From: Corynebacterium coyleae
GTDB lineage: Bacteria > Actinomycetota > Actinomycetes > Mycobacteriales > Mycobacteriaceae
Assembly (NCBI RefSeq): GCF_030408635.1
Contig: NZ_CP047198.1
Coordinates: forward strand, 1,860,001-1,924,000
Direction of reading: 5' to 3'
DNA: 64,000 bases
The position numbers were made by a program, and so were the translations under genes. Below the pieces are notes generated by a model. The model was not told the DNA's origin. It ran no database searches and was given only the letters and a program-made list of their open reading frames with translations. This document shows positions 423-63,063 of the stretch, in pieces; the first letter of the stretch is position 1; each line of letters begins with the position of its first letter.

Positions 423-532
423 TCAGTTTTCGCACATGTGCACCCCGGCGGGGGATGTGGCCCGGTGTGGACGCTCCGGGGTGGAGGGGTCGTCGACAAG
501 CAAAATGCGCGCAGTGTTTGAGGAAGAAGGGG

Positions 533-757
533 TCACGCTGGTCGCGTAACCACGCACGCGTCATCTGACGGGTCGAGCCACTCCAACTCTTTGCAATCAA
601 CCCCCTCGGCTATAGCAGTCGCAGTTTCCTTCCATGCTGTGAACTCGGCTGCCAGCAGGCTGGGGTCTTCCGAAGTAATCGCTTCTCGAAGGTCACGCGC
701 GCACGCCTCTCGGTCGTCCGGGGAAAGCGAGACCATCCACGGAAACGCTCGAGTCAT
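533..757 (-). CDS. small acidic protein, possible antitoxin-type remnant
   Basis: 74 residues from ATG at 757; a TTG at 778 would add seven. It reads FPWMVSLSPDDRE ... FTAWKETATAIAEG ... ELEWLD. This resembles small actinobacterial proteins, and C-terminal parts of antitoxins, with an FPWL-x-LLPxxDR start and a WxxTAxAxA motif. I infer a stand-alone or decayed toxin-antitoxin component, because no partner gene is visible on either side. The region is less G+C-rich than its neighbours. It is divergent from cstA and convergent with the fragment at 1-206. Confidence 0.5.
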   Translation of the reverse strand: MTRAFPWMVSLSPDDREACARDLREAITSEDPSLLAAEFTAWKETATAIAEGVDCKELEWLDPSDDACVVTRPA

Positions 758-927
758 TCGTTCCACGCGATCAAACAAATGCCTTCGCCTTTCGATACAG
801 CTAGAAAAGTTCTACTACGCAAACTTATGCGGTCATCGCGCGGAAGTCGAGGGGTATCAGACATCCCGTTCACATAAAACAGCGCATAAAAACACCCCAA
901 ATGGAAACTTAAAAGTGTGCTGTGTGT

Positions 928-965
928 CATAATTCGCAAACTGTGAACCACGACACGAATGGAGG
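928..965 (+). promoter_or_regulatory. cstA promoter region and ribosome binding site
   Basis: CATAAT at 928-933 is a good -10 hexamer in an A+T-rich stretch (about 830-940); no convincing -35 is seen. GGAGG at 961-965 sits six bases before the cstA ATG, so cstA has a proper leader, unlike many genes here. TGTGA at 942-946 is half of a CRP/GlxR-type site, but the second half is poor. Confidence 0.5.
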
Positions 966-971
966 ACGCCC

Positions 972-3899: not shown

Positions 3900-3944
3900 C
3901 CTCCCCGAGCCCCGCTCCGAGGAGTGGAAGGTGTCCGATTGGCA

Positions 3945-4278: not shown

Positions 4279-5616
4279 TTAGTAGAAGCCTTCGAAGGCG
4301 CTGGCTTTCTTCGCGGTGCGTTCGAGGCGCGACTCGGTCATGGAGGCGATTTGGTCGATGATCACGCGCTCGCGCTCGGCGTCGGTGTCGGCCGCTTCGA
4401 ACCAGGCACGGAACATCGTGTCCAGGGTGCCCGGGGCGCCGGCGCGCAGGTACTCGTGGACGCGGTAGATGCGGTCGCGCTGGCGGTCCTGGCGCGCAAG
4501 ATGGGCGGGCACGTCCATGACGTAGAGCACCGCGACGGTTTTCAGCAGGCGAACCTCGGCCTCGACGTCGGGCGGGACGATGAGGCGGCCGTGCTGGCGC
4601 CCCATCAGGCCCGAGGCACCCGCAGCGCTCGCAGCGCCCGGGGCTGCAGCAGGACCCGAGGCGCCCGCAGTGCCAGCGCCCGCAATGCCAGCGCCCGCAG
4701 CGTTCCCCTCGAGGGTCGCCTTGGTCACGCCGCCGATGTAGCGCCCCACCAACTGCGACGTCAGCCCCTTCAGGCGAACCCAAGAGGACAAGGTGTAGTC
4801 GAAGTCGGCGGCGGCTGCGATGGCGGGCAGGGCGCGGAGGCGGTCGGCGGCGTCGACGAGTGAGTCGGCGTCGCCACCAAAGGCGGCGGCGCCCTTCTCG
4901 GCAAGGGCGGCGAGTTCGACGAAGTCCCACAACACCTGCAGGGAGACGCGCCCGGAGACGATGCCGTCTTCGACGTCGTGGACGGAGTAGGCGATGTCGT
5001 CGGAAAAGTCCATCACCTGCGCCTCCATCGGCGGCATGTCGTCGGTGTGGCCTTCGCGCGCCCACGCAAGCACCGCTGCATCCTCGTCGTAGGCGGAGTA
5101 CTTGCGGTTCAGGGTGCCGTCTGGGTTGGTGCGGGTCACGGGGTATTTCACGGCGGCATCGAGGGAGGCGCGGGTGAGGTTGAGGCCGTACGAGTGGTCG
5201 TCGATAAGCACTTTGGGCTCAAGGCGCGACAGGATGCGCAACGTCTGCGCATTGCCCTCGAAGCCGTGGGGCGCGACCTCGTTGAGGGCCACTTCGCCGT
5301 TGTGGCCGTACGGCGGGTGGCCGATGTCGTGGGTGAGCCCGGCCATCTCGCACAGGTCGGGGTTCAGGCCAAGCCCTTCGCCGATGCCGCGCGAAATCTG
5401 GGCGACCTCCAGCGAGTGCGTCAGGCGCGTGCGCGGGGTGTCACCGTCGCGCGGGCCAACAACCTGGGTCTTGTCTGCTAATCGACGAAGCGCCGCCGAA
5501 TGCAGCACCCGGGCCCGGTCACGCGCAAACGCACCGCGCGAATCCGGCGCGAGCTGCGCCCCCTTCGGCCCCTCAGCGGTGCGGCGTTTCGTATCGTCGG
5601 CGTTATAGGCGTACAC
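4279..5616 (-). CDS. dgt: deoxyguanosinetriphosphate triphosphohydrolase-like protein
   Basis: 445 residues from a GTG at 5616. HD-domain metal ligands are clear: the His of RLTHSLEVAQ and the HD of THDIGHPPYGHNGE. The family cleaves dGTP or other dNTPs to nucleoside plus triphosphate. Near residues 300-340 there is an Ala/Gly-rich insertion encoded partly by a 15-base tandem repeat. The start has no ribosome site but lies eight bases from TAGGGT, which fits a leaderless message. A copy of the dispersed 13-mer (5197-5209) encodes LIDDH. Confidence 0.92.
   Translation of the reverse strand: MYAYNADDTKRRTAEGPKGAQLAPDSRGAFARDRARVLHSAALRRLADKTQVVGPRDGDTPRTRLTHSLEVAQISRGIGEGLGLNPDLCEMAGLTHDIGHPPYGHNGEVALNEVAPHGFEGNAQTLRILSRLEPKVLIDDHSYGLNLTRASLDAAVKYPVTRTNPDGTLNRKYSAYDEDAAVLAWAREGHTDDMPPMEAQVMDFSDDIAYSVHDVEDGIVSGRVSLQVLWDFVELAALAEKGAAAFGGDADSLVDAADRLRALPAIAAAADFDYTLSSWVRLKGLTSQLVGRYIGGVTKATLEGNAAGAGIAGAGTAGASGPAAAPGAASAAGASGLMGRQHGRLIVPPDVEAEVRLLKTVAVLYVMDVPAHLARQDRQRDRIYRVHEYLRAGAPGTLDTMFRAWFEAADTDAERERVIIDQIASMTESRLERTAKKASAFEGFY
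4661..4705 (-). repeat. 15-base tandem repeat inside dgt
   Basis: The plus-strand unit GCGCCCGCARTGCCA occurs at 4661-4675 and 4676-4690, with a diverged third copy at 4691-4705. It encodes a five-residue GIAGA/GTAGA repeat within the Ala/Gly-rich insertion of the dGTPase. The repeat length keeps the frame, so copy number could vary between strains without breaking the gene. Confidence 0.85.
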
Positions 5617-5635: not shown

Positions 5636-7645
5636 ATGACTAGCCGTTACCTTCGCGTCCTCGCCGTCGGCGGCATGCTGTTTCTCGCAGCGCCCGCCTC
5701 AGGTTTTGCCGAAACGCCCGCGCTTGCGCAAGGCGTAGCCACGGAAACTAGCGTCCAGCCAGGGCTTTTGACCAAGCCTGTGACCGACGACGCCGGCGTG
5801 CTCACCGATAGCGAGCGCGCCGAGATTGAGCAGGCGATTCAGCAGGTCAGCCAGTCCCAGGGCAAGTCGGTGCGGGTGGTGTTCCTGCGTACCTTTGGCG
5901 ACATCACCCCGTCCGACTGGGTCGACCAGGCCGTCGCCGCGAACGGTTCCAACACCGCCGTGCTGGTGATTTCCCCCGACGAACGCGCCTACAACGTCGG
6001 CGGTGGCGAAGAATGGACCCAGGCCGAGATCGACCGGATGAACGACGCCGCCTACGCGCAGCTAACCCAACTCAATTGGTCGCAGGCGGCGCTGAATGCG
6101 GTTGAGTCGGTGGGTGGGTCGTCGTCAAGCAACGGTGACGGCGTGGGCTGGGTCGCAGGCGGCCTCGGTGTCGCGGCGCTCGCCGGCGGCGGCATGTACG
6201 CGGCAACACGCAAGGGCTCGCGCAAGCAGCAAGCGAAGCAGATCGCGTCTGCGAAGGCGCTCGACCCGGCGGATACTGACTCGCTCGGCCGCCTGCCCAC
6301 CGCGACCCTGGAGGAGGTCGCACGCGACGCGCTCGTGTCCGCCGACGAATCCATCACGCAAGGCAAGGAGGAGCTGAAACTGGCCACCTCCGAATTCGGC
6401 GCCGAGCGCGTCCGCCCGTTCACCTCCGCCATGAACGAGGCCACCCGCACCCTGCAGCGCGCGTTTTCCACGCACCAGAAACTTTACGACGCCATCCCCG
6501 AAACCGAACCCGAAAAACGCGCCATGCTCGTCGACATCATCTCCTCGTCAGGAAAGGCTGAACAGGCACTTCGCGACAAAACCGCTGAGTTCAACGACAT
6601 GCGCGGCGTGCTCATGCGCGCCCCCGACGAGGTGGACAAGATCCTCGCCCGCACCGTAGACATCCGCGCGCGCCTCGAGCCGGCCCGCGCCACCCTTGCG
6701 CAACTGCGGGAGACGCACGCGCCGGAGATGTTGTCGTCGATCGTGGACAACGTCGATGTTGCGCAGGCCTCCCTCGACGAAGCCGAGAAGGCACTTAACG
6801 ACGCCCGCACCCTCGCCGCCCAGCCCGCCGGCCGCCAAGGCGCGCTGCTGGACACGCTCGCCGCGGCGTCGCACGCCGTCGAGGTCTCCGACACGAACCT
6901 CAACGCGATCGAGCACGCGGAAGAGAACATCCGGGCGGCGAAAACCAATTTGCCAGCGCTTATCGACGAAATCCGCGCCGAACTCCGCGACATCGAAGCA
7001 GTCAAGGGCGCCCGTGAGCAGGGCGCGCGTATCGACGTCGCCGCCCTGGACGCCGTCTCCGCCAAGGCCCAGCGCATGCTCGACGCGATGGGCAACCGCG
7101 CCGAGACCGACCCACTTGCCCTCTACGAGGAACTGGCGAACATGGACGCCGAAATCGACGATGCTCTCGACCGTGCCCGCGGCGTCGCCGGCGACCAGGC
7201 CCGCGCGCTGCAACTGTTCGATCAGCAAATGCAGGTCTGTGCCGCGCAGATCCAGCGCGCCGAGGACCTGATCCGCTCGCGTGGCCGCATCATCGGCTCC
7301 GACGCCCGCACCCTGCTCGCCGAGGCGAAGCGCCAGCACGCCCAAGCGATCCAGCTGCGTGTGCGCGACACGCGTGCAGCTATCGACGCCGCCCGCACCG
7401 CCACCGACACCGCCCGCCGCGCCGAAAACTCCGCCAACGACGACGTGCGCCGCTACCAAGCGGCCCGCAACCGCCAAACCGCCGACTCGCTGGCCAGGGC
7501 TGTGCTGTGGGGCACGCTGCTCTCCGGCGGCGGAGGCGGTGGGGGCTACAGCGGCGGATCCCGCGGCGGCGGGGGTGGCTTCGGCGGCGGTGGTGGCGGA
7601 GGTTTCTCCGGCGGGCGCCCCTCCAACCGCGGCGGAACCTTCTAG
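5636..7645 (+). CDS. secreted or anchored TPM-domain protein with coiled coil and glycine-rich tail
   Basis: 669 residues. Signal peptide at about 1-25. TPM (YgcG/DUF477) domain at about 45-165, with TKPVTDDAGVLTDSE and the VGGGEEWT stretch. A membrane segment follows at about 172-192, then a long Ala/Glu-rich helical or coiled-coil part to about 600, and a tail of Gly runs with Ser, Arg and Phe. The domain order is typical of corynebacterial TPM proteins. TPM domains face the cell exterior and occur in proteins linked to membrane-protein quality control; the exact role is unknown. It is read from the shared leaderless promoter with dgt. A dispersed-motif copy (6958-6969) encodes LIDE. Confidence 0.85.
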   Translation: MTSRYLRVLAVGGMLFLAAPASGFAETPALAQGVATETSVQPGLLTKPVTDDAGVLTDSERAEIEQAIQQVSQSQGKSVRVVFLRTFGDITPSDWVDQAVAANGSNTAVLVISPDERAYNVGGGEEWTQAEIDRMNDAAYAQLTQLNWSQAALNAVESVGGSSSSNGDGVGWVAGGLGVAALAGGGMYAATRKGSRKQQAKQIASAKALDPADTDSLGRLPTATLEEVARDALVSADESITQGKEELKLATSEFGAERVRPFTSAMNEATRTLQRAFSTHQKLYDAIPETEPEKRAMLVDIISSSGKAEQALRDKTAEFNDMRGVLMRAPDEVDKILARTVDIRARLEPARATLAQLRETHAPEMLSSIVDNVDVAQASLDEAEKALNDARTLAAQPAGRQGALLDTLAAASHAVEVSDTNLNAIEHAEENIRAAKTNLPALIDEIRAELRDIEAVKGAREQGARIDVAALDAVSAKAQRMLDAMGNRAETDPLALYEELANMDAEIDDALDRARGVAGDQARALQLFDQQMQVCAAQIQRAEDLIRSRGRIIGSDARTLLAEAKRQHAQAIQLRVRDTRAAIDAARTATDTARRAENSANDDVRRYQAARNRQTADSLARAVLWGTLLSGGGGGGGYSGGSRGGGGGFGGGGGGGFSGGRPSNRGGTF

Positions 7646-10634: not shown

Positions 10635-11066
10635 ATGAAACACCGCCCACACAGCACGCGTCCGGTCCCGAAGCTTGGCCCGAGGATGACTAAGCAGCGC
10701 GCGGCGGTCGTCGATACGCTGCGTGGCTTAGACAAATTCGCCTCCGCACAGACCATCCACGAGATCCTCACCGACAACGGCGAATCCGTGGGGCTGACCA
10801 CTGTCTACCGCACCCTGCAATCACTCGCGGAGGTCGACGCGGTGGACGTGCTGTACTCCCCCGAAGGCGAAACGCTCTACCGCGACTGCGTCGCCGACCA
10901 CCACCACCATCACCTGCTGTGCTCCAAATGCGGCCGCAGCGAGGAAATCGAAGGCGGCCCGGTAGAAAGATGGGCCGAGGTGATGGCGAAGCACTACGGC
11001 TACGAACTCGTCGGCCACGACGCCGAAATCTACGGCGTGTGCCGCGACTGCCAGGCCAAACGCTAG
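10635..11066 (+). CDS. zur: Fur-family zinc uptake regulator
   Basis: 143 residues. A winged helix is followed by the histidine cluster [13 protein letters not shown] and a closing CRDC, which supply the structural Cys4 zinc and the regulatory zinc sites. The N-terminus MKHRP...[10 protein letters not shown] allows an alternative start at 10686, but the KLG segment is usual in actinobacterial Zur, so the longer form is kept. Represses zinc uptake genes when zinc is plentiful. Its stop codon interlocks with that of uppS in a single CTAG. Confidence 0.94.
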
Positions 11067-11788
11067 TTATCGAACTTATCTACCGCACCACCAAAGCGCC
11101 GGTCGCGCTTCGCGTACTCCAGCACCGCGTCCCACAGGTCCTGCTTAGTAAAGTCCGGGAACAGCACGTCCTGGTACACCATCTCCGCGTAGGCCGACTG
11201 CCACAGCAGGAAGTTTGAGGTGCGCTGCTCCCCCGACGGGCGCAAGAACAGGTCCACGTCCGGCATGTCGGCGCGATACAGGTAGCGCTGGATGGTTTTT
11301 TCGTCGACGTGGCGCACGTTGTCGTCGATAAGCGCCTGCACTGCGTCGGTGAGCTCGGCGCGACCGCCATAATTCACGCACATCGCAAGGGTGAGCCCCG
11401 TGTTGTGCTTCGTGAGCTCCTCAGCGACCTCAAGCTCCTCAATCACGCTGCCCCACAGTTTCGGGCGACGCCCGCACCACACCACGCGCACGTTCTTCTC
11501 ATGCAACTCGTCACGCTGGCGGCGCAACACGTCGCGGGTGAAGTTCATCAAAAAATGCACCTCGGAAGGGCTGCGCTTCCAATTCTCCGTAGAAAACGCG
11601 TAGGCGGACAGCCACTCCACCCCACCAAGTTCGATGCAGGCATCGACGGCGTCCATGAGCTTTTCCTCGCCCACCTTGTGCCCCTCCGTGCGCTTCAAGC
11701 CCCGTTGCTGCGCCCAACGGCCGTTGCCGTCCATCACCAGTGCGATGTGTTTCGGGATGAACTTCTTGTCAATCTTCGGTGCGCCCAT
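11063..11788 (-). CDS. uppS: cis-prenyl transferase (decaprenyl/undecaprenyl diphosphate synthase)
   Basis: 241 residues. The signature [12 protein letters not shown] (pyrophosphate and Mg site), the [10 protein letters not shown] motif and the C-terminal [19 protein letters not shown] are all intact. Makes the polyprenyl diphosphate that becomes the lipid carrier for peptidoglycan and arabinogalactan. Mycolata have two such enzymes; this full-length copy beside recO corresponds to the long-chain one. A dispersed-motif copy (11321-11333) encodes LIDDN. Confidence 0.94.
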
Positions 11789-11797: not shown

Positions 11798-12514
11798 TTA
11801 TGCCTGCTCCATGATCTTCAGACTCTTCAGCCCGGCCTCAAGGTTGTGCTGCACGTGCGCCACGGTCGCGCGGTGAATTTGCGCAACGCGTATCGACGAC
11901 ACCCCGTAACCTCCCCGCAACAACCACATATCGTGCAGCGTCTCCGGATCCACATCCATCGAGCCGGTGGGCCGGCAGTTGTTGCACACCGCCCCGCCGA
12001 CGGTGGCGTTGAACGCCTTGTGTGGGCCCGGGGCCTGGCAGTCCGCGCAGTTGAACAGGCTTAAACCCCAGCCGGCGTGCTCGGTGGCCTTGAGCATAAA
12101 CGCGTCGAGCACCAGCGTCGGGTGCTGGTCGGTCTGCAGGTTGGTTAGCGCCTCCTGCACAAGCGCGAACAGTTCCGGATCACCCTGGTCGTAGGAGAGC
12201 TTCTCGGCGACCTCCATGACGGCGCAGGCGGCGGCGTAGCGGTCGAAGTCGTCGATGATGCGGGCGCCGTAGTAGGTGACGGTGTCGGCGCCGGTGATCG
12301 TCGATAAGCCTCTGCCCGGATAGACCTGCACATCCACATCCACGAACGGCTGCAGGCGCGAGCCGAAGCGGCTTTTCACCTTGCGCACGCCCTTCGCCAC
12401 CCCGCGCACCAGGCCGTGGTTGCGGGTCAGCAGGACGATCACGCGATCCGCCTCACCGAAATCGTAGGTGCGAACCACAAAGGCGCGATCGCGCCAGGAC
12501 GGCCTAGAAGCCAA
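11798..12514 (-). CDS. recO: DNA repair protein RecO
   Basis: 238 residues from a TTG at 12514, which lies inside the end of era (11-base overlap), so coupled to it. N-terminal OB fold (AFVVRTYDFGEADRVIVLLT), a helical domain, and a zinc knuckle CADC ... CNNC. Works with RecF/RecR to load RecA on gapped DNA. A dispersed-motif copy at 12300-12309 encodes GLSTI. Confidence 0.94.
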   Translation of the reverse strand: MASRPSWRDRAFVVRTYDFGEADRVIVLLTRNHGLVRGVAKGVRKVKSRFGSRLQPFVDVDVQVYPGRGLSTITGADTVTYYGARIIDDFDRYAAACAVMEVAEKLSYDQGDPELFALVQEALTNLQTDQHPTLVLDAFMLKATEHAGWGLSLFNCADCQAPGPHKAFNATVGGAVCNNCRPTGSMDVDPETLHDMWLLRGGYGVSSIRVAQIHRATVAHVQHNLEAGLKSLKIMEQA

Positions 12515-13573: not shown

Positions 13574-14611
13574 ATGGATTTTTTGGAGTTTTGTCAAGCG
13601 GGCGTGGGGATGCTCGCCGGGTTCTCGCGGGAGGCCGCAGTTGCAGCTGGCTTATCGACGACACGAGCGCGCGACCTCGCCCGCGTCTTCGATACGTACT
13701 ATGGCCCGACCAAGTTCACGCGCAAGCAGGCTGATGCGCTGGCGTTGGCGGAGGGGTTGCCGATCGACCAGTTGGTGCTCATCGAGAAGAAGTTGGTTGT
13801 GGTGGGCTCGGCTGCTGAGCGGTGGCGCATCCGGTTGGATCTGGTGCGGCATCGTGGTTCGTTTCGCTCGTTGTCGAAGCGCATCAGCAGGCTTATCGAT
13901 GTCCCCGTGACCGCCCCCAAACCCTCCTGCCGGTTCACGCGCTCGCGTGAGGGCATGCGTACCATGACGCTGACGTACAACGAGCGCGATCTGGCCGACT
14001 TGGAGCACACGCTGCGTTCCATGATCGATGAGGATCGGCCGGCTGCGGAGCAGATGGCCGGCTCACTGTTCCGCCTGTTGCGCGAGGGCGGCGGGGTGCC
14101 GCGCGCGGCGCTGCGGCCGATGATTTTGGTGCCGATCCAGGCCTACACCCGCATCATGGACGGCTGCGGCGACGACGTCGAACTTGTACTTACCGACGGC
14201 ACCACGATGACCGGCGCCGAGTTTCTCACCCGTGAGTTCGGCGACGTGCTCGAGGTGGCCGCCTTCCACCCGCAGAAAGGTGCGGTGAACCTGTACCGGA
14301 CGCAGCGGCTGGCGAATGGGAAGCAGCGGACGATGTCGAAGTTGATGTCGCCACGTTGCGCCTTCCCCGACTGCCGGCATTCCGCCGAAACCACCCAAAC
14401 CCACCACATGCACGCCTGGAAGCACGGCGGGATGACCAACATAGACAATCTGGCGCAACTGTGCGCCTACCACAACGGAGTCAACGACGACGACCGGTGG
14501 CGGGCGATCCGCGGGCACATCGACAACCCGAACGGGCGCATCTGCTGGATCGCACCCAACGGGACCGAAGTGCCGACCGTGACGGGGGCGATGGAGCTGC
14601 TGTTCGACTGA
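13574..14611 (+). CDS. HNH endonuclease-like protein, DUF222/13E12 type
   Basis: 345 residues. The C-terminal zinc/HNH module has CAFPDCRHSAETTQTHHMHA, HGG, N and CAYHN, in the arrangement seen in the actinobacterial DUF222/13E12 family; the N-terminal half is a helical region of unknown function. Such genes are multicopy and often associated with mobile regions. The start at 13574 is chosen for its TAGCGT box; the frame is open from 13538. It lies in a three-gene block that separates era from the CBS protein. A dispersed-motif copy (13650-13662) encodes GLSTTRAR. Confidence 0.85.
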   Translation: MDFLEFCQAGVGMLAGFSREAAVAAGLSTTRARDLARVFDTYYGPTKFTRKQADALALAEGLPIDQLVLIEKKLVVVGSAAERWRIRLDLVRHRGSFRSLSKRISRLIDVPVTAPKPSCRFTRSREGMRTMTLTYNERDLADLEHTLRSMIDEDRPAAEQMAGSLFRLLREGGGVPRAALRPMILVPIQAYTRIMDGCGDDVELVLTDGTTMTGAEFLTREFGDVLEVAAFHPQKGAVNLYRTQRLANGKQRTMSKLMSPRCAFPDCRHSAETTQTHHMHAWKHGGMTNIDNLAQLCAYHNGVNDDDRWRAIRGHIDNPNGRICWIAPNGTEVPTVTGAMELLFD

Positions 14612-14683: not shown

Positions 14684-15535
14684 TTAGAGGGCTTCGACCT
14701 CGAACTGGAGTTGCGGGTTGGCGTAAAACTCCTGGGCCTCGACGAGCTGGAGTTCGTTGGTCTCGGCCTCGAAGGTGAGGCGCAGCATGTCGTAGACCGA
14801 GGAGGCGGTCTTTGCCAACGCGTCCTTTGCGTCGTGGCTGCGCACGTAGTGGCCGGTAAACAGCGCTGCAGTAACATCGCCGGAGCCGTTGCGCTTAAAC
14901 GGCAGGCGCGGGGTGCGCACGATCCACTTGCCGTTGTCGTCCACGGCGATCATCTCGATCGCATCCTCGGGCGTTTCGGGGCGCTCCACCGAAGTCACCA
15001 GCACGGTCGACGGGCCCATCTCACGGGCCGCGTCCACGGCGGCAAGGGTCGAATCCAGGTCGGTGACGTCGCGCTCGGTGAGGTAGCCCAACTCGAACTG
15101 GTTCGGCGTAATGATGTCCGCCGCCGGCACGATCGTCGAGCGGAACAGCGGCGGGATCGTATCCGCCACGAAGCAGCCCGACTTCGCCGAACCCATCACC
15201 GGATCGCACGCATAGAGCGCATCCGGGTTTTCAGCCTTGATGTCGCGCACGGTGCTGACGATCACGTCGGCGATTTCCGGGGAGGCCTGGTAGCCGGTGA
15301 GGATGGCGTCGATAAGCGGGAACGCATTGCGGTCGCGGATGCCCTTGAGCACCGCCGCAACGTCGGCGGCCGGAATGATCGGCCCCTCCCACGCACCATA
15401 ACCCGTGTGATTGGAGTAGTTCACCGTGTACACCGGCCACACCTCGTGGCCGATGCGCTGCAAAGGAAAGACCGCCGCCGAGTTGCCAACATGGCCAAAC
15501 GCGACGGCGGACTGGATCGAGAGAATATTGCTCAT
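14684..15535 (-). CDS. pdxY: pyridoxal/pyridoxamine kinase
   Basis: 283 residues of the ribokinase-like fold. Features: ILSIQSAVAFGHVGNSAA at the start, the YACDPVMG stretch, TPNQFELGYL, and the C-terminal RNGSGDVTAALF that holds the anion hole and catalytic Asp. Phosphorylates pyridoxal in B6 salvage. It follows the dehydrogenase gene by nine bases, and no clear ribosome site is seen, so it may be coupled. A dispersed-motif copy at 15308-15317 encodes LIDA. Confidence 0.92.
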   Translation of the reverse strand: MSNILSIQSAVAFGHVGNSAAVFPLQRIGHEVWPVYTVNYSNHTGYGAWEGPIIPAADVAAVLKGIRDRNAFPLIDAILTGYQASPEIADVIVSTVRDIKAENPDALYACDPVMGSAKSGCFVADTIPPLFRSTIVPAADIITPNQFELGYLTERDVTDLDSTLAAVDAAREMGPSTVLVTSVERPETPEDAIEMIAVDDNGKWIVRTPRLPFKRNGSGDVTAALFTGHYVRSHDAKDALAKTASSVYDMLRLTFEAETNELQLVEAQEFYANPQLQFEVEAL

Positions 15536-48937: not shown

Positions 48938-50794
48938 CTACTCCTCGTCGGTGGACAGCGCTGCCACGAACGCTTCCTGCGGCACGGTGACCGAACCGAT
49001 GGACTTCATGCGCTTCTTACCGGCCTTCTGCTTCTCCAGCAGCTTGCGCTTACGGGAAATGTCGCCGCCGTAGCACTTCGACAGCACGTCCTTACGCAGG
49101 GCGCGGATGTTTTCACGGGCGATGATCTTCGAGCCGATCGCGGCCTGGACGGGCACCTCGAACTGCTGGCGTGGGATGAGCTCTTTGAGCTTCTTGGTCA
49201 TCTTGTTGCCGTACCACTGGGCGGAGTCCTTGTGCACGATGGCGGAGAACGCATCGACGGGTTCGCCCTGGAGCAGGATGTCCACCTTGACCAGGTCGGC
49301 TTGCTGCTCGCCGGCTTCTTCGTAGTTGAGCGATGCGTAGCCCTTGGTGCGGGACTTCAGCATGTCGAAGAAGTCGAAGATGATCTCGCCGAGCGGCATG
49401 AGGTAGCGCAGCTCCACGCGGTCCTCGGAGAGGTATTCCATGTTCTTCATCTGGCCGCGCTTGGACTGGCACAGTTCCATGGTGGAGCCGACGAACTCCT
49501 GGGGCACGATGATCGTCATGTTCACGATCGGCTCGTACACCTCGGGGATTTTGCCGCCGGGCCAGTCGGACGGGTTGTGCACCATCTGTTCGGTGCCGTC
49601 TTCGGCGATCACGCGGTAGGTGACCGACGGCGCAGTGGAGATCAGGTCCAGGTCGAATTCGCGCTCGAGGCGGGTGCGGGTGATCTCCATGTGGAGCAGG
49701 CCCAAGAAGCCGCAGCGGAAACCGAAGCCCAGGGCGACGGAGGTTTCGGGCTCCCAGGTGAGGGAGGCGTCGTTAAGCTGCAGCTTCTCTAGCGACTCGC
49801 GCAAGGCCGGGAAGTCCTCCTGGGAGACTGGGAACAGGCCCGAGTACACCATCGGCTTCACTTCCTCGAAGCCTTCCAACGGCTCCGAAGCGCCCTTGGA
49901 AGCCCAGGTGACGGTGTCACCGACGCGGGTCTCGCGCACGTCCTTCACGCCGGTGATCACGTAGCCGACCTCGCCCGGGCCAAGCCCCTTGGTCTTCTTC
50001 ATCGTGGGTGAGACCACGCCGATTTCCAGGATCTCGAGCGTGGTGCCGGTGTTCATCATCTGCACCTTCTGGTTCGGCTCGAGGCGGCCGTCCATCATGC
50101 GCACATACGTGACGACGCCACGGTAGGTGTCGTAGACGGAATCGAAAATCAGGGCGCGGGCCGGCGCCTCTGCGCCGTGCTCGGACTCGGGAGCCGGAAT
50201 CAGCTCAACGACGCGGTCGAGCAGTTCCGGCACGCCCTCGCCCGTCTTGCCGGACACGCGCAGCACGTCTTCCGGTTCGCAGCCGATGATGTTGGCGATC
50301 TCCAGTGCATACTTTTCCGGGTCGGCTGCCGGCAGGTCGATCTTGTTCAGCACCGGGATGATCTCCAGGTCATTGTCGATGGCCATGTAGAGATTGGCCA
50401 GCGTTTGGGCTTCGATGCCTTGGGCGGCGTCGACAAGCAAAATTGCGCCCTCACACGCGTCGAGGGAGCGGGCGACCTCGTAGGAAAAGTCCACGTGGCC
50501 TGGGGTGTCGATCATCTGCAACACCATCTCTTCACCCGCGTGCGCGCCGGTCTTGGGCACCCACGGCAGGCGAACGTTTTGGGCCTTGATGGTGATGCCG
50601 CGTTCGCGCTCGATGTCCATGTTGTCGAGGTACTGGTCGCGCATCTCACGCTCGTCCACCACGTTGGACAGCTGCAAAATGCGGTCTGCCAGCGTGGACT
50701 TACCATGGTCGATGTGGGCGATAATGCAGAAGTTACGGATGCGGGCGGGGTCCGTGAACGTATTTTCCGCGAAGTTCGTCGATTTGGCAGCCAT
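48938..50794 (-). CDS. lepA: elongation factor 4 (LepA)
   Basis: 618 residues. GTPase domain with [12 protein letters not shown] and [11 protein letters not shown]-like domains II, III and V, and the LepA-specific C-terminal domain ending near [19 protein letters not shown]. Acts on ribosomes under stress or during initiation. TAAGAT lies nine bases before the ATG (50809-50804). A dispersed-motif copy (50429) encodes LLVDAAQ in the GTPase domain. Confidence 0.97.
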
Positions 50795-52796: not shown

Positions 52797-53822
52797 GTGA
52801 AAATTAAAAAGCGTGCGGTTGCGGCCGCGCTGACGTTTAGCCTGATGGCATCCCCTGCAATCGCTCCAGAGGCGAAGGCTGCAGACCCGTCCGTTTCGGC
52901 ATCCGTGGATGCAGCTGAGCTCGTTTCGGCATTGTCGAAACTCCTTCCGATGAATAACCCGCAGGTCAAGCAGGCGCTTGGCGTGTTGACGTTGATCATC
53001 GCCGGTATTTTGGTAGCGGTGCCGATGGCGGAAGCGGGGTCGTCGATACGCAATGGCGCCGTGGGCGACAAGGCTCCGGGCAAGCACACGCGCCGCATCG
53101 TGGTGGATGGCACCTCGCGCTCCTACGATGTGGTCCTGCCGTCGAACTACTCCGAGGGCGTCGCCTACCCGGTGATTCTTGGTTTTGGTGGCTGGCAGCA
53201 CACCGCAAGCCAGACGCGTGACTACCAGAAGTTCGAGACCGCAATCGACAACACGATTGTGATCTACGCGCAGGGTGTTGACAACGCGTGGGCTGGAGCG
53301 CCGTATGCCCGCACGTCGCTGAATGAGGACATCGCCTACACGCGCGCCATTATCGACGACGCCGCCACCCAGTACGGCGCCGACCCGAACCGTGTCGTCG
53401 CAGCCGGCCTGTCCAACGGCGGCGGATTTGCGGCCGCACTTGCCTGCCACGCCCCCGACACCGTCAAGGCGGTCGCCTCCGTCGCTGGTGCGTTTTACAA
53501 CCCGACCGTGACCGGCTGTACCTCCGGATCGGTGCCCACGCTGATCATGCACGGCACCAACGACAACGTAGTGGGATACAACGGCGGTATCCGGCACGGT
53601 GCGTTCTACGAGTCGGTGGATAGCGTCATGCGCACCATGGCCTCGAAGAACAAGTGCTTGGGCACGACCACCCGTTCGCGCTCCGACAACGTGACCACGT
53701 TTGAGGCGCAGGGCTGCGACGCGGCCACGCGCGTGGAGCGCATCGAGGGTGGCATCCACACCTGGTTCACCGACCCGAGCGCAACCGCCCACACGGTGCG
53801 CTTCCTCCTGCCCTACCTGTAA
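52797..53822 (+). CDS. secreted esterase of the PHB-depolymerase/LpqC family
   Basis: 341 residues from a GTG preceded by AAAAGAGG. Signal peptide at about 1-28; a hydrophobic stretch at about 60-80 may be a membrane anchor. Alpha/beta hydrolase core: nucleophile elbow GLSNGGG, Asp in MHGTNDNVV, His in EGGIHTWF. Related proteins cleave polyesters or feruloyl/acetyl esters; the native substrate is unknown. A TACGC-type dispersed motif lies at 53039-53051. Confidence 0.85.
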   Translation: MKIKKRAVAAALTFSLMASPAIAPEAKAADPSVSASVDAAELVSALSKLLPMNNPQVKQALGVLTLIIAGILVAVPMAEAGSSIRNGAVGDKAPGKHTRRIVVDGTSRSYDVVLPSNYSEGVAYPVILGFGGWQHTASQTRDYQKFETAIDNTIVIYAQGVDNAWAGAPYARTSLNEDIAYTRAIIDDAATQYGADPNRVVAAGLSNGGGFAAALACHAPDTVKAVASVAGAFYNPTVTGCTSGSVPTLIMHGTNDNVVGYNGGIRHGAFYESVDSVMRTMASKNKCLGTTTRSRSDNVTTFEAQGCDAATRVERIEGGIHTWFTDPSATAHTVRFLLPYL

Positions 53823-55423: not shown

Positions 55424-57061
55424 TTAAAACTCTCGCCGCGGCAGCACTTGGGTGCCATCCGGGTAGATGGCAACGTTGCCGTCGCGGTTGGGAAAGATCA
55501 CGGGGATGCCCTGGTCAGTGACCACGGGTCTTCGGTGGGGGCGGCCCTTTTCAAGCACGACAACAAGCTGCGTGCCCGGCGGAATGGGCAGGGCATCTTC
55601 TTGCTTTTCGACGACATGAGCACGCAACCTGCCCACATCCACCGGCGTGCCCGCCGGCGCCTGCGACAGGACCACACCAAACCCGCACACAAGCGCCGCC
55701 GCCAGAGTGGTCTTCGGGTATCCGGCAAACAAGCCCGCGAGGAACCATCCGTAGACAACCACGACGACGATGGGTTCCGTCTCTACCGTGGCACCGGGAA
55801 ACCGTGCACCGTTTTCTGCGACCACACGCACCCAATAGGCCATGGGTTCCACCACCCACAGCACAGGTGCAGCCAACCCGCCGTGGATGAGGCTGAGCAA
55901 CACCGCCGCAAGGCCGAGCACAGTCACCGGGCCGGTCACCGGTGCGACGATGACGTTTGCCACCACAGAGACTAAAGAAGCCCGGCCGGCCATCATGGCG
56001 ACAATCGGCATCGTCGCTACGTCGGCGGCAACCGCAACGGCAAGTGCACGCACGAGAATGTCGGGCCAGCCCGTGGCAGCAAGGACGCGGTACAACAGCG
56101 GAAACAGCGCGACGATGCCCGCGGTCGCCGCTACCGAGAGCGCGAACCCGTAATGCACCGCCAGGTCTGAATCCACCAGCACTAGGCCGATCACCGATAA
56201 ACACAGCGCGTGGATCGGCTCGGACTGGCGTGACGCCAACACCGCAGTCAACCCCACCAACCCAGACACGGAAGCGCGCAGCACGCTCGGCTCGGGTCCG
56301 ACCAGCGAGGCGTAGAGCAACAGCGCCGCAGCCGACGCCACGATACGACCCCGCAGCCCCAAGCCCACTGCCGCTGCGGCAATCGCTGCGAACGTGGTCA
56401 CGATTGCCACGTTCGCACCAGAGACTGCTGACAGGTGCGAGAGGCCAGTGTCGATGTAATCCTGCTGTTCTTGGCTGGTTTGCAACGAGACGTCCCCGAG
56501 CACCATGCCCGAGATCAGCCCTTGGGCGGACTCCCCCACGGTGGCCTGGACAACGCCGGCAAACGTTTCCCGGGTGTGCTGCGCAAACGCAGCCAACCCC
56601 TGCGGTGGGGAGACCACCTCAACTGACCCGTTGACCGCAATCGGGTTGATCCCAGCCATCTCCGATTCCTTCACCACGCCGCGCACAACCACCTGGGCGC
56701 CGGACACGGCAGTGTCCGGCACTTCATCGACAAACACGGGCGTCAGCGTCGGGTTGCCGTCTACCTGCACGCGGACGATGAACCCGCCGGTGCTCGTCTG
56801 CTTCGGCGCGCCCGATACCCGGCCCACGAACTGACCCGCGGGCTCCCACGCCCGCGCAATGCGCAGTCGCACCCCGGTGGTCACGACGGCGGCCGCACCC
56901 ATCCCCGCAATGAACACCGCCTGCCCGTAGGCGCGCAGCACCACAGCACCGATAACGGCCACCAGCACCACAACCACCGCGATGCCCACTCCGAGGGTGA
57001 TCGCCACCGCAGCCGCTGCCCACACCACCAGCGCCGCCGGGACAAGCCTGATCTCCCCCAC
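55424..57061 (-). CDS. comEC: ComEC-type DNA translocation channel
   Basis: 545 residues from a GTG. A DUF4131-like N-terminus, then the Competence domain with HLSAVSGANVAIV and GPEPSVLRASVSG. The C-terminal metallo-beta-lactamase nuclease domain of longer ComEC proteins is absent: no HxHxDH motif, as in other short actinobacterial forms. Would carry single-stranded DNA across the membrane during uptake. Confidence 0.9.
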   Translation of the reverse strand: MGEIRLVPAALVVWAAAAVAITLGVGIAVVVVLVAVIGAVVLRAYGQAVFIAGMGAAAVVTTGVRLRIARAWEPAGQFVGRVSGAPKQTSTGGFIVRVQVDGNPTLTPVFVDEVPDTAVSGAQVVVRGVVKESEMAGINPIAVNGSVEVVSPPQGLAAFAQHTRETFAGVVQATVGESAQGLISGMVLGDVSLQTSQEQQDYIDTGLSHLSAVSGANVAIVTTFAAIAAAAVGLGLRGRIVASAAALLLYASLVGPEPSVLRASVSGLVGLTAVLASRQSEPIHALCLSVIGLVLVDSDLAVHYGFALSVAATAGIVALFPLLYRVLAATGWPDILVRALAVAVAADVATMPIVAMMAGRASLVSVVANVIVAPVTGPVTVLGLAAVLLSLIHGGLAAPVLWVVEPMAYWVRVVAENGARFPGATVETEPIVVVVVYGWFLAGLFAGYPKTTLAAALVCGFGVVLSQAPAGTPVDVGRLRAHVVEKQEDALPIPPGTQLVVVLEKGRPHRRPVVTDQGIPVIFPNRDGNVAIYPDGTQVLPRREF

Positions 57062-57077: not shown

Positions 57078-57806
57078 CTATAAGCCGACCTGGTCGCGCA
57101 TTGCCGCAAGTTTCGCCGGTCCAATTCCTTTCACGTCAGTCAACGCATCTACCGACGCAAACGGCCCGTTTGCCTCACGGTGCGCCACGATCGCGGCTGC
57201 GGTTGACGGGCCGACTCCGGTAATCGTCGTCAATTCCTGCACCGATGCGGAGTTGATCGACACCACCCCACCCGCCGAAGCGCCAGCAGCGCCAGCACCG
57301 CCACCGGAATCCGTAGCGGCCGGTGGGGCGTGTTGGGAGCGGACGTGGATCTGTTGGCCGTCGACAAGCAATTGCGCATGATTGATCGAGATCAAGTCAG
57401 CATCCGGCAATGGCCGGGCCGTCTGCAGCGCATCCGCGACCCGTGCACCCTGGTTCAACGTGATCAGGCCCGGGTTTTCCACCTCACCAACAACAGAGAC
57501 CACCACGGTGCCTGTGACCTCGGTGGGAGAGGCGACCTGCTCCCACGCAACGCCCTCATCATCCATGGGGCCGGATCGGGTCACCGCCCATCCGCCGACG
57601 GCGAGCAGCACTGCACCGGCGGCGGCCGCAGCTTGTTTCACAGGGATGCGCACCCGCGGCTCCGGGTAGCGCACCGTCAGGAGGTCTTCTTCCCCGGTGG
57701 GCCGGGTGAGCTCCTTGAGTCGTTCAGTGGCGTTCACACCAAAAACGCTATAAACCCCCGGCGCACTCGCCAAGGGGTCAGAAAAAATCTGTGGATAATC
57801 CGCCAT
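57078..57806 (-). CDS. comEA: ComEA-type DNA-binding protein
   Basis: 242 residues from ATG 57806; an in-frame GTG at 57737 (giving VNATERLKELTRPTGE) is a strong alternative. One N-terminal membrane span, an SLBB-like domain (VVVSVVGEVENPGLI), a Gly/Ala linker, and a C-terminal helix-hairpin-helix pair (SINSASVQELTTITGVGPS, DVKGIGPAKL). Binds incoming DNA at the cell surface. A dispersed-motif copy (57360) encodes LLVDGQQ. If ATG 57806 is right, a DnaA box is inside the coding start. Confidence 0.9.
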   Translation of the reverse strand: MADYPQIFSDPLASAPGVYSVFGVNATERLKELTRPTGEEDLLTVRYPEPRVRIPVKQAAAAAGAVLLAVGGWAVTRSGPMDDEGVAWEQVASPTEVTGTVVVSVVGEVENPGLITLNQGARVADALQTARPLPDADLISINHAQLLVDGQQIHVRSQHAPPAATDSGGGAGAAGASAGGVVSINSASVQELTTITGVGPSTAAAIVAHREANGPFASVDALTDVKGIGPAKLAAMRDQVGL

Positions 57807-58626: not shown

Positions 58627-59258
58627 TAGTTACGGCCTCGGTTCCAGGCTTCGATGTACCACTGGGTCTTGGTGTCGTCGTCAATGCGCGGCATTGCCAC
58701 CAGCCGTGACGTGTTCGCGTTACCGAGCCCCTTGAACAGCGGATACTGAGACACCTGCAGGCCAAGCAGCGTGGCGGTCAGCGCGGCGATGGTGCCTCCG
58801 TGCGCCACGAGCAGGACAGCAGCATTGTCCCATTCATCGTGGTCACGCATGAGTTCCATGACCACTTCGCGGGAACGTTGCGCAACGTCGATGCGGCTTT
58901 CGCCCTCTGGCGGCGCCCAGGTGGGGTCGGTGCGCCACAACGCACGAGCCCCGTCGTGGGCGGTGTCCACTTCCTCGTGCGTCTTGCCTTGCCACTGGCC
59001 AAGGTGGGTTTCGCGCAGACGCTTATCGACGACAACCTCAAGGTCCAAATCCGCCGCCACCACATCAGCCGTATCCTTCGCACGGATGAGGTCAGATGAC
59101 ACGATCTTGTTAATACCCAAGTGCCGCAGGTCCTCTGCCGCAGCATGCGCCTGGGCGCGTCCGCGCTCGGACAGTTCAGTATCCAGCTGGCCCTGCATGC
59201 GGCGAGTTGCGTTATAGAGCGTCTCGCCGTGACGCAGCAAAATCAGTCGGCGCTGCAT
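58626..59258 (-). CDS. gpgP: histidine phosphatase, likely glucosyl-3-phosphoglycerate phosphatase
   Basis: 210 residues. RHGE (residues 9-12) and the second His in VAHGGTIAAL mark the phosphoglycerate mutase-like family. Position between rsfS and degV matches M. tuberculosis Rv2419c (GpgP), which makes glucosylglycerate for methylglucose polysaccharides; C. glutamicum calls the homologue gpm2. The substrate is therefore an inference from position. A dispersed-motif copy (59021) encodes VVDKRLRE. Confidence 0.8.
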   Translation of the reverse strand: MQRRLILLRHGETLYNATRRMQGQLDTELSERGRAQAHAAAEDLRHLGINKIVSSDLIRAKDTADVVAADLDLEVVVDKRLRETHLGQWQGKTHEEVDTAHDGARALWRTDPTWAPPEGESRIDVAQRSREVVMELMRDHDEWDNAAVLLVAHGGTIAALTATLLGLQVSQYPLFKGLGNANTSRLVAMPRIDDDTKTQWYIEAWNRGRN

Positions 59259-59263
59259 GGGTC

Positions 59264-59737: not shown

Positions 59738-59823
59738 GTGGCAATCCTTATTCAGGTCATGGACAAATCAACTGGGCCATTGTCCCACGTATGACCGCAA
59801 CATTTCCAGTTCAGGGGTCGCGC

Positions 59824-60447: not shown

Positions 60448-60454
60448 TGGGTGT

Positions 60455-60829
60455 TTACCTCAGTCCTGGCAGTGGCTGGATGTTAATCGACTCAATAAAC
60501 AGCAAAGACATGCCGATGACGCCTGCGACCAGCGCGCCGAGAATACCCAGCACCGTGCCGATGATCACCGGACGATTCGACTCGTCAGCCCACTTTGCCT
60601 TGTTGGAGCTGCCCGGCTGGGACACGGTCTCCGTGACACAGATCTGCTCGCCCTTGCTGTTGGTCACCGGGACGGGGTTGCCGCCCTCCTCATCAACTTT
60701 CCACTGGCACGTTTCCTTGACGGTTTTCGTTTCCTCGGTCTTGCGCACAAACTCTGCGGCCGAGGCAACAGTAGGCGTCGCGCCAGCCAACAACGCGGCA
60801 GCGACAGTAGCGGAAATGATGCGGTTCAT
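60455..60829 (-). CDS. small exported protein with C-terminal membrane span
   Basis: 124 residues. Signal peptide to about Ala24 (VASAAEF), a charged middle with two Cys (ETCQW and EQICVTE) that could bond, and a C-terminal span ([25 protein letters not shown]). Its start codon shares one base with the cutinase stop (TAATG), so it is made together with the cutinase. No family recognised. Confidence 0.75.
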
Positions 60830-61767
60830 TAGCGGTAGCGTACCTGATCAACAAATCGGCCGAAAGCATCCGAGACTTGGTTGTCCCAGCGCGATGGCCA
60901 ACGGAAGTAACGCGCGTGGTTGCCACCAGTTGGCTGGGATGCCTGCAGCGTCTGAATGGACAGGTCACACACGGAGTCCTGCGGCAAGCAGTAGTTCACG
61001 CGGTTCGGGGTCGCCCCTGCGGTCTTGGTGTTAAACGGCAAGAAGCCAAGCATGCCTCCGGCACCACCTGCTGGCACGCCGACGGTGGACCAATCCCCCG
61101 CCGCCGTGTTCGGGTTGCCAAAGTAGACCACACCCGCCAACTGGCCACGGCGTGCCAGTTCGCGCTCGTGCTCAAGCAGAATCATCGCGCCTTGCGAGTA
61201 GCCGGACAGGATGTACTTCGGGCGGCAACCACTGCGATGCTCGTAGTCATTGACCATCTGCATCACACCGGTGCGTCCGATCTGGACCGAATCCACGAAC
61301 TCTGTGGCTACTCGCCTTGCCATCATCCACACCGGGTTGGCGTACTGCAGCGCAAGAGCCAGTGCCTGCAGGATGGTGCTTGGTACGGCAACCGACGGTA
61401 CGTCGTATTCGGGGAACGTCGCCGGGTAGTAGCGCGGCTCCAGGCCGATGACCTCGACGTCCTTCATCAGCGAGTTACCGCCGTGGGTGGCTGCGTAGCG
61501 ACGCTCCGCATGCTGCAGGAACGCACGAATCGTCTCACCCTCCCAACCGTTGGAGGTCCACGGCGCAGCCCACGAATACTTCGTGCGGTAAATCTGCGTG
61601 TTCTGGCCCGAGCCGCGGGCAGCGATGACGGCGACCGCCGGACAGCGCGTCTGCGCGTCTGCTTCGGGGGTCGGTGCGACGGGGCTCAACGTTGCGGTCA
61701 CAGCCGTCGCAATAGCCGTGGCAAACAGCGCAAACTTGGCGCGAATGGAGGTCCGGGATTTTAGCAC
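60829..61767 (-). CDS. cutinase-family secreted esterase
   Basis: 312 residues from a GTG. Signal peptide at about 1-37 (ending EADA). Nucleophile motif GYSQGA, Asp in DSVCDLS, and His in GGNHARYF form the triad; Cys pairs match cutinases and Culp proteins of mycolata. Acts on lipid esters at the envelope. TAGTCT, overlapping the proA stop, is six bases before the start. Confidence 0.9.
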   Translation of the reverse strand: MLKSRTSIRAKFALFATAIATAVTATLSPVAPTPEADAQTRCPAVAVIAARGSGQNTQIYRTKYSWAAPWTSNGWEGETIRAFLQHAERRYAATHGGNSLMKDVEVIGLEPRYYPATFPEYDVPSVAVPSTILQALALALQYANPVWMMARRVATEFVDSVQIGRTGVMQMVNDYEHRSGCRPKYILSGYSQGAMILLEHERELARRGQLAGVVYFGNPNTAAGDWSTVGVPAGGAGGMLGFLPFNTKTAGATPNRVNYCLPQDSVCDLSIQTLQASQPTGGNHARYFRWPSRWDNQVSDAFGRFVDQVRYR

Positions 61768-61773
61768 GCCGAT

Positions 61774-61779
61774 AGACTA
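61774..61779 (-). promoter_or_regulatory. leaderless -10 of the cutinase operon
   Basis: TAGTCT on the minus strand, six bases before the GTG at 61767, overlapping the end of proA. Confidence 0.5.
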
Positions 61780-63063
61780 GCGCACCTGGCCATTACCTTC
61801 CAGAATCCACTTCGTGGTGGTCAGCTCCGGTAACGCCATGGGTCCGCGCGCGTGAAGCTTCTGTGTAGAGATGCCGATCTCTGCACCCATGCCGTATTGC
61901 TCCCCATCCGTGAATGCGGTCGAGGCGTTGAGGACGACGGCGGCGGAGTCGACGGCGGCAGCAAATCGTCGCAAAGCATCTGCGTCTTGGGCTGCGATCG
62001 CATCCGTGTGGCCGCTGGAGTAACGCGCGATGTGCGTGGTCGCACCATCGACGCCGTCAACGATGGCGCTTGCGATGTCCATGCTGAGGTATTCCTCGGC
62101 GAAGTCCTCCTCCGTTGCGGGTTCTACGGTGGCACCGAACGCAGCATGCTTATCGACGTCACCATGCACCACCACACCAGCCTCCTGCAGCGTCGCGATG
62201 ATGGTGTGTTTGTCGGTCTCGGACAGGTGGGCGTCGATAAGCACCGTCTCTGTCGAGTTGCACACGCTGACCCGGCGCGTCTTGCCGTTGAGCAGCATCG
62301 CGATCGCCTTGTCCAGATCTGCGGACGCGTCGATGTAGAAGTGACAGTTGCCAGTGCCGGTCTCGATGGTGGGCACGATCGCGCCGGTCACCACCGCGTT
62401 GATCAAACGTGCACTTCCGCGCGGGATGACCACGTCCACCAGCCCGCGGGCGGTGATGAGATCCTGGACAGAATCGTGGCTCTCGCACGGCAGGAGCTGC
62501 ACCGCCTCACGCGGCAGGTCGTTGCCTGCGAGGACGTCCTGCAGCACTGCGACGAGCGCCTCGTTGGAGTGGCGCGCCGTCTTGGAGCCACGAAGCAGGG
62601 CCACGTTGCCCGACTTCAGCGCCAGACCGAACGCGTCGACGGTGACGTTCGGGCGTGCCTCGTAAACCATGCCCATCACGCCGAGCGGGACGCGCACCTT
62701 CTTCATCTGAATCCCGTTGGGCAGCGTACGTCCGGTAAGCACCTCGCCCACCGGATCCTGCAGGCCCGCAACCTGGCGCAGCCCCCCGGCGATGCCGTCG
62801 ATGCGTTCCTCGTCGAGCGCCAGCCGGTCCAACACCGACTCCGCCAGCCCGTTCGCGCGACCCTCTTCGATGTCGCGCGCGTTGGCTTGAAGGATTTCAC
62901 CTGCGCGCTCGGCCAGTGCCTCCGCTGCCGCCAACAGCACCGCATCCTTCGCCGGTGTCGGCAGCACCGCAATCGTCGGGGCAACATCCTTGGCACGCTG
63001 TGCTTTCTGCAGTACCTCGTCGCGCTCGGCTTGGCGTTGCTGATCAGTCTGTTGGGCAGTCAT
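61777..63063 (-). CDS. proA: gamma-glutamyl phosphate reductase
   Basis: 428 residues, aldehyde dehydrogenase fold. Catalytic Cys in [30 protein letters not shown] is typical. Second step of proline synthesis. TACGAT six bases before the ATG gives a leaderless start. It carries two dispersed-motif copies (62148 and 62233) only 75 bases apart, in opposite orientation, encoding DVDKHAA and VLIDAH. Confidence 0.96.

Follow-up and report, generated by a model that had tools for sequence, protein, structure and literature searches.

A short bipartite word, CGTCGNNAAGC (CGTCG-N2-AAGC), is dispersed through most of the Corynebacterium genomes that we sampled, in large excess over control patterns. 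We consider it probable that this word is a DNA uptake sequence of the genus, of the DUS/USS kind, with a function and a receptor that we infer from genome comparisons.

The word was detected through its core, GTCGAYAAGC, in a window of 64,000 nt (the whole stretch of DNA analysed). The window contains 24 copies of this core, compared with a mean of 0.40 and a maximum of 3 in 100 dinucleotide-preserving shuffles. Copies of the form GTCGACAAGC were found by word search on the plus strand at 492..501, 18385..18394, 44750..44759, 50429..50438 and 57360..57369, the last one within comEA, and on the minus strand at 26678..26687 and 27951..27960. Copies of the form GTCGATAAGC lie on the plus strand at 5200..5209, 11324..11333, 12300..12309, 15308..15317, 18454..18463, 25605..25614, 43413..43422, 47589..47598 and 62233..62242, and on the minus strand at 6958..6967, 13650..13659, 20068..20077, 22526..22535, 33873..33882, 47397..47406, 59021..59030 and 62148..62157. 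The same search gave 8 copies of a sister form, GTCGATACGC, for 0.14 expected: 10710..10719, 28284..28293, 39751..39760, 41420..41429 and 53042..53051 (plus strand), 7027..7036, 11888..11897 and 39552..39561 (minus strand). The first-pass annotation of the window had listed 23 copies of the core and these 8 of the sister form; all positions were exact, but the core copy at 18385 on the plus strand had been overlooked, and the G+C content, estimated at 62%, is in fact 63.9%. It had also placed all copies but one in coding sequence, and this holds: 22 of the 24 are within called genes, and the comEA copy at 57360 makes a 23rd, added separately as comEA escaped gene calling. For the called genes of the window, codon-preserving shuffles predicted 2.35 copies (maximum 8 over 500 shuffles), far from the 22 observed. 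Density in the window is 2.2 times the genome average (24 copies vs 10.9, P 0.0004), and the copies are more evenly spaced than at random (P 0.014).

A cluster restricted to the window, which the annotation had named as a possible objection, is not what we see. The 2.5 Mb Corynebacterium chromosome carries 426 copies of GTCGAYAAGC, split evenly as 213 on each strand, whereas the reversed pattern occurs 7 times. In the same genome, the full word is present 1193 times, 612 on one strand and 581 on the other, against 88 for the reversed control. It is non-palindromic, and its 2-base spacer is needed, as spacers of 1 or 3 bases gave background counts. Taking the wider pattern CGTCG-N2-A[A/C]GC, the AAGC form is about 20-fold over-represented. 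GTCGAYAAGC is a portion of this wider word, which covers further forms absent from the first-pass annotation. For the CGTCG half, one-mismatch copies range from scarce to depleted. Apart from one or two flanking bases at either end and a codon periodicity of 3 bases, the position profile indicates little conservation outside the word, which speaks against copies of a mobile repeat. Over 464 kb, counts per 5 kb bin follow a Poisson-like distribution, in contrast to the even spacing in the window. No copy lies in a 20 kb polysaccharide island of low GC (L096), for 9.5 expected, and the three lowest-GC pieces together have 8 for 28.5 expected, low GC being taken here as an assumed sign of acquisition. 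Site conservation between species, a check put forward at first pass, was found to be elevated: in 75 of 148 site-comparisons all eight fixed columns were identical, while other 11-mers reached 17%.

We then classified 151 sampled Corynebacterium genomes, using limits set after seeing the gap in counts (CGTCG at 3 times the control, CATCG at 600 copies). The CGTCG word was found in 106 genomes, one of which has both forms; 7 genomes have CATCG-N2-AAGC only, 2 a weak CATCG signal, and 36 neither. C. glaucum is one of the word-positive species. Copy number ranges from 115 to 1891 among the 106 CGTCG-positive genomes, and when these are summed the strands are at parity (56065 vs 56231). Among 298 sampled genomes of the order, the excess is confined to Corynebacterium, and in the 293 sampled from outside the genus the word is at background. 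The two dialects differ by a G to A change at base 2 of the word, and a LepA tree of 30 genomes suggests about four or five separate origins of CATCG. Preferences at the middle bases also differ by species. A possible third form, CGTC-N3-AAGA, was noticed in C. jeikeium and C. dentalis.

The source genome encodes the apparatus that an uptake sequence would serve, as ComEA, ComEC and a type IV-like pilus were all found, the latter as a Tad locus with TadE/TadF. The presence of comEA and comEC in the window, announced by the first-pass annotation, was upheld by Pfam and NCBIfam matches. The comEA gene (57078..57806, minus strand; Pfam HHH_3 and SLBB) encodes SLBB and helix-hairpin-helix domains and is a candidate reader of the word; with NCBIfam, its ComEA helix-hairpin-helix region is above cut-off and the whole-protein comE model below. 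The comEC gene, for the DNA channel (55424..57061, minus strand; Pfam Competence PF03772), matches ComEC_N-term above cut-off and ComEC_Rec2 below. Having this machinery is not enough to predict the word, because ComEC, and mostly the Tad genes too, occur in word-negative species. ComEC was present in 50/50 named genomes searched and has no discriminating power; in two genomes (L003, L004) it is missing near lepA, yet encoded elsewhere. Among 20 loci, Tad genes were common to word-positives and negatives, only TadB of C. jeikeium being undetected. Two detectable T2SSF (TadB/TadC) domains were found in 34 of 37 word-positive genomes, hand-picked rather than drawn at random from 113, against 19 of all 38 negative or weak ones, kinship being ignored. 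Weak Tad HMM matches may reflect the divergence of whole clades.

We also searched for columns co-varying with the dialect. The strongest, chosen after inspection and with kinship ignored, were in the N-terminal part of ComEA (0.89), at a Val of the ComEA hairpin (0.86), in ComEC (0.84) and at an Arg of TadE (0.74). The TadE Arg is present in 19 of 47 CGTCG rows and in 0 of 9 CATCG/both rows, the other CGTCG rows including 10 Ser, 7 Glu and 5 Thr (75 rows aligned, 70 used; G096, G080, G073, G100 and G094 were dropped as mis-extracted). As for the hairpin Val, in a set where 85 loci gave a sequence and 16 none, it is found at 10/10 CATCG/both loci, and also at 8/53 CGTCG loci (7/49 minus duplicate genomes), all but one of these 8 being from C. 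tuberculostearicum and presumed close relatives. No receptor stands out from the co-variation in ComEA and TadE, and we claim none, since the columns are post hoc and uncorrected for kinship, and those of ComEC are about as strong.

Could codon usage, or protein motifs of the LIDD kind, produce the excess as a side effect? Of the 65 CGTCGAYAAGC sites in genes of a 464 kb sample, 49 share a reading frame (giving LID/LVD or VDK), as might be expected of such a side effect; the first-pass annotation was right that copies lie in different frames and in either orientation, but had not mentioned this preference. Codon-preserving shuffles of the sample predict only 4.6 copies for the 65 observed, the coding sites use both gene strands (25 and 40), 12 of 77 copies fall outside called genes, and base 2 changes from G to A between species. 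We give this explanation practically no credence: the artefact is contradicted by the codon shuffles in both sample and window. The claim that selection acts on the DNA word itself is supported, given shuffled counts far below those observed and an excess that is genome-wide and genus-wide; the two outcomes that the annotation had named as refuting it, a similar count after codon shuffling and a cluster confined to the window, were sought and did not appear.

Other functions of a short DNA word have to be weighed. Dispersed, mostly intragenic and strand-symmetric copies would be in keeping with a strand-independent binding site for a protein that organises or segregates the chromosome (nucleoid-associated, SMC-loading or MatP/Noc/SlmA-like). 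We hold this to be unlikely, even if it is the most serious of the rivals: no ori or ter gradient was visible in 21 sampled pieces, as judged without formal test, and absence of the word from 36/151 genomes, together with repeated switching at base 2, is unlike a core system. Core segregation proteins are moreover common to genomes of the order, 293 of which are at background. A recombination hot spot (Chi) or an FtsK-orienting sequence would also be short, non-palindromic and present in many copies. Such motifs are polar relative to replication, and we found no replichore bias in the 21 pieces (100 leading vs 114 lagging copies, P 0.37); these strand counts on both replichores disfavour any polar segregation or Chi motif, and we regard this reading as very improbable. 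Slightly better placed, and still improbable, is the idea that a widespread methyltransferase or restriction system recognises the word, or that it results from another process like that behind HIP1, itself an abundant intragenic word. The Corynebacterium word is non-palindromic, with 9 fixed bases arranged as 5 + 4 around a 2-base gap, a layout unlike Type I sites, which have a gap of 6-8 bases, or Type II sites; besides, genomes usually avoid restriction sites and do not accumulate them. Among the analogies offered at first pass, the uptake sequence fits best, its function being conjectural, whereas neither HIP1 nor polar motifs of the Chi or segregation type match.

If the word is an uptake sequence, a surface receptor of the competence apparatus would preferentially bind free DNA that carries it, the candidates being ComEA, which is anchored in the membrane and has a helix-hairpin-helix domain, and, in the Tad/Flp pilus, the minor pilins TadE and TadF. 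Bound DNA would enter via ComEC, then recombine. Word-bearing fragments would be copied into genomes more often, so that copies would accumulate by biased replacement, a form of drive. A change of receptor would shift the dialect, and the dialect would act as a partial barrier between species. With somewhat less assurance, we lean towards a broader proposal: most Corynebacterium may be naturally competent and police uptake via a bipartite, repeatedly dialect-switching word, with ComEA or a Tad minor pilin as its reader. Such a system would be without precedent in Actinobacteria and for a Tad pilus, and would have evolved independently of DUS and USS.

So far as we are aware, the established cases of uptake sequences are limited to Neisseriaceae and Pasteurellaceae. 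Among the literature matches listed, we found no experiment on transformation or DNA uptake in which Corynebacterium was the recipient, and no earlier report of such a word, or of an uptake sequence in the phylum. If the proposal is true, Corynebacterium would be a third case, Gram-positive and of independent origin, and self-recognition during DNA uptake would be seen to have evolved again and again. Natural competence would then be expected in this genus, which matters to industry and medicine; hard-to-handle species could gain a simple transformation route, and borders to gene flow among related species could be accounted for. The range of copy numbers over 106 genomes and the parallel dialect switches would make co-evolution of word and receptor testable.

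Compared with known systems, the Corynebacterium word is abundant, short and intragenic like HIP1 of cyanobacteria, but HIP1 is a perfect palindrome, GCGATCGC. Like the USS of Pasteurellaceae, e.g. Haemophilus influenzae, it is dispersed, mostly intragenic and has variants among related species; its sequence is different, and its profile lacks the AT-rich flanking tracts of USS. In Micrococcus luteus, another actinobacterium with comEA/comEC and tad genes, transformation requires the Tad genes (PMC4322843), and the phrase 'uptake sequence' is absent from that paper. The closest likeness is to the DUS of Neisseriaceae, of which eight dialects with an invariant core are described (PMC3630211), and 1474 canonical copies accompanied by 682 one-base variants in Neisseria strain 8013 (PMC3868556). 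As there, a short non-palindromic word reaches over a thousand copies per genome, its species dialects keep an invariant core, and the genomes that carry it also encode a type IV-like pilus. Unlike DUS, for which variants are plentiful and the receptor is ComP, the Corynebacterium word has few one-mismatch copies in its CGTCG half, is bipartite with a free 2-base middle, has dialects that vary in this middle and at base 2, and occurs in another phylum, with a Tad/Flp pilus and a putative receptor.

The window occupies positions 1860001-1924000 of a single contig of 2,508,772 bases, and its LepA (48938-50794, minus strand) is 92-96% identical to the LepA of the best eleven loci retrieved by a search of named genomes (L001-L011), all from Corynebacterium, which assigns the sequence to that genus. 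The first-pass annotation had reported 23 copies of GTCGAYAAGC in the window. The excess was real, and the exact total is 24 (a copy at 18385 had been overlooked), against 0.40 in shuffles. The sister form GTCGATACGC was likewise found in excess (8 copies, 0.14 expected). The phenomenon extends beyond the window: the whole genome contains 213 forward and 213 reverse copies of GTCGAYAAGC, where the reversed pattern occurs 4 and 3 times, the density in the window being 2.2 times the genome average.

It had also been proposed that selection acts on the DNA word itself. Genes were called with a simple codon-usage script, and synonymous codons were permuted inside them, leaving every protein and its codon usage unchanged. 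Such shuffles failed to reproduce the counts, in line with this proposal: genes of the window contain 22 copies of GTCGAYAAGC (shuffle mean 2.35, maximum 8 in 500), and genes of a 464 kb sample of the same chromosome (the window and a further 20 pieces, each 20 kb long) contain 65 copies of CGTCGAYAAGC (mean 4.6, maximum 10 in 200). These 65, out of 77 copies in the sample, comprise 25 on the strand of the gene and 40 on the opposite one.

In the same 464 kb, the word takes the form CGTCG-N2-A[A/C]GC, with two variable central bases and A or C as third-last base. Its AAGC form, CGTCGNNAAGC, is present in 214 copies for 10.4 expected and, genome-wide, in 612 + 581 copies versus 88 for the reversed control, or about one per 2.1 kb. 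Any substitution in its first five bases brings the count near background (0 to 2.2 times expectation), while the tail is more tolerant (for example, AAGT 6.1-fold and ACGC 5.4-fold above expectation). The central bases are partly constrained in this genome, GA, GC, GG and GT making up just 5 of the 214 copies, and spacers of one or three bases showed no excess, their counts being at background. In the position profile, T is favoured before the word and A after it; beyond that, mainly a 3-base coding rhythm is seen. Two words that differ by one base, GGTCGNNAAGC and CCTCGNNAAGC, fall short of the codon-shuffle expectation in genes of the sample (0 versus 10.4 and 1 versus 7.1, respectively).

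Among the analogies raised in the first-pass annotation, Chi and segregation motifs, being polar, fit poorly. Judged by where the GC skew changes sign, a signal that is noisy in places, the origin lies near the contig ends and the terminus near 1.3 Mb. With these landmarks, CGTCGNNAAGC has no replication polarity in the 464 kb sample (100 leading versus 114 lagging copies over both arms, P 0.37), and this parity counts against Chi-like and FtsK-orienting roles. The 59 relaxed-form copies of the window are more evenly spread than random (coefficient of variation 0.75 versus 0.98, P 0.014), but 5 kb bins across the 464 kb sample are Poisson-like (mean 3.20, variance 2.98). The three lowest-GC pieces together hold 8 copies for 28.5 expected. 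One piece of 52% G+C, just left of the window (L096, G000:C1:1820001-1840000), has none for 9.5 expected; this is a low-GC polysaccharide-biosynthesis island encoding glycosyltransferases and UDP-sugar dehydrogenases.

Conservation of the sites, suggested earlier as a check, was compared with that of other coding 11-mers in alignments between the window and 15 lepA loci of relatives. All eight fixed columns were kept in 75 of 148 site-comparisons, which are not independent because a given site recurs in several genomes, versus 17% for other in-gene 11-mers, unmatched in composition. A DnaA-box-like word, GTTATCCACA, was enriched in three pooled lepA loci (L035, L042, L048; 9 versus 0.05, orthologous copies being counted repeatedly).

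We then surveyed a sample of 151 Corynebacterium genomes from a larger group. In 106 of them CGTCGNNAAGC reached at least three times the control, with between 115 and 1891 copies (the median being 1081.5, against 65.5 for the control) and balanced strand totals (56065 forward, 56231 reverse); one of these genomes also carries a CATCG dialect, CATCGNNAAGC. This second dialect is found alone in 7 genomes (625 to 1080 copies) and weakly in 2 (213 and 159 copies), and 36 have neither. Outside the genus, within the same order, none of 293 sampled genomes reached twice the control, the top ratio, judged by eye, being 1.78 (G466).

Favoured middle bases, surveyed in roughly 120 kb of sequence from each of 16 named Corynebacterium species or strains, are AT in C. 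glaucum, AC and AG in C. gallinarum, TC, TA and CA in C. xerosis, TC and GC in C. amycolatum, GC and AC in C. pseudodiphtheriticum, and GC and AT in C. tuberculostearicum. Strain ACRPS prefers CATCGGCAAGC, and C. parakroppenstedtii has a weak excess in which the final GC is often missing. No member of the word family was in excess in 7 of the 16 samples. Of the seven, C. jeikeium (L148-L152, L053) and C. dentalis (L193-L197, L057) show a weaker excess of CGTC-N3-AAGA (18 and 15 copies, each versus 3.2), possibly a further dialect, so that some of the 36 negatives may hold further dialects, but similar words are in two- to four-fold excess in other negative species too. Two samples also contain other repeats: about 76 copies of one containing AAGTATATC and TAATGAGAA in the C. 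marambiense sample (L163-L167, L059), perhaps a large CRISPR array, and about 32 copies of one with GAGAGTTAAACCCC in Corynebacterium sp. HS2168-gen11 (L208-L212, L066), perhaps another.

A nucleotide tree of LepA from 30 genomes places those with CATCG as follows: G168 groups with G185; G127 and G212 adjoin the CGTCG genome G012; G006, G106 and G179 adjoin CGTCG genomes G004 and G005, with G217 (1337 CATCG and 352 CGTCG copies) branching beside them; and G218, with the weak G147, adjoins CGTCG genomes G000 (the genome of the window) and G002. Switches to CATCG would number four or five, as G217 and the G006 group can be counted as one or two, and the figure is approximate because it comes from a single gene tree with some weak nodes.

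Which machinery might read the word? ComEC (55424-57061, minus strand) and ComEA (57078-57806, minus strand) are encoded in the window, and ComEC was present in all 50 named Corynebacterium genomes searched. In G098 (C. urinipleomorphum) and G101 (C. lactis) its domain match is split into two adjoining pieces, which may reflect a broken gene or an error in sequencing; both still carry the word (634 and 138 copies of CGTCGAYAAGC). The chromosome of the window also has a Tad locus in an actinobacterial helicase/secretion neighbourhood, with a DEAH helicase, a CpaE homologue, TadA, two T2SSF proteins (TadB, TadC), a Flp-like pilin, an Rv3655c-like TadE (below the curated cut-off) and a TadE-like protein of the Rv3654c family, here termed TadF. 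With an E threshold of 0.001, all 50 named genomes gave T2SSF domains, and in 49 of them the match exceeded the cut-off. Among 75 genomes, 34 of 37 word-positive ones, hand-picked from 113, yielded two T2SSF domains, versus 19 of the complete set of 38 negative or weak ones (Fisher P 9e-5, uncorrected for relatedness). Loss of the pilus followed by decay of the word would fit the weak genomes G147 (no T2SSF domain) and G158 (partial), and is suggestive only, because three positives (G212, G021, G036) also have just one such domain. Word-negative species retain ComEA, ComEC and Tad genes.

Candidate readers are the helix-hairpin-helix domain of ComEA and the minor pilins TadE/TadF. All 10 loci with CATCG or with both dialects have a valine in the ComEA hairpin, as do 8 of 53 CGTCG loci. 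TadE has a C-terminal arginine in 19 of the 47 rows from CGTCG genomes and in none of the 9 rows from genomes with CATCG or both dialects. These are leads only, since ComEC columns co-vary with dialect about equally strongly.

The word is maintained against codon usage, and related species retain defined variants of it; a sequence-specific reader is therefore needed. By analogy with known systems, this reader would probably be part of DNA uptake. No earlier description of the word in Corynebacterium appeared among the matches listed, judged by title and start of abstract, when the full text of the open-access literature was queried. In another actinobacterium, Micrococcus luteus, transformation requires tad genes, a dependence that the authors consider likely to hold for other actinobacteria as well; their paper does not contain the phrase "uptake sequence" (PMC4322843). 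N. meningitidis 8013 has 1474 copies of the canonical DUS, which the minor pilin ComP reads (PMC3868556). Neisseriaceae possess eight DUS dialects with a common invariant core, and these dialects hinder transformation across species boundaries (PMC3630211); the overall pattern of this system is matched by the Corynebacterium word and its dialects.
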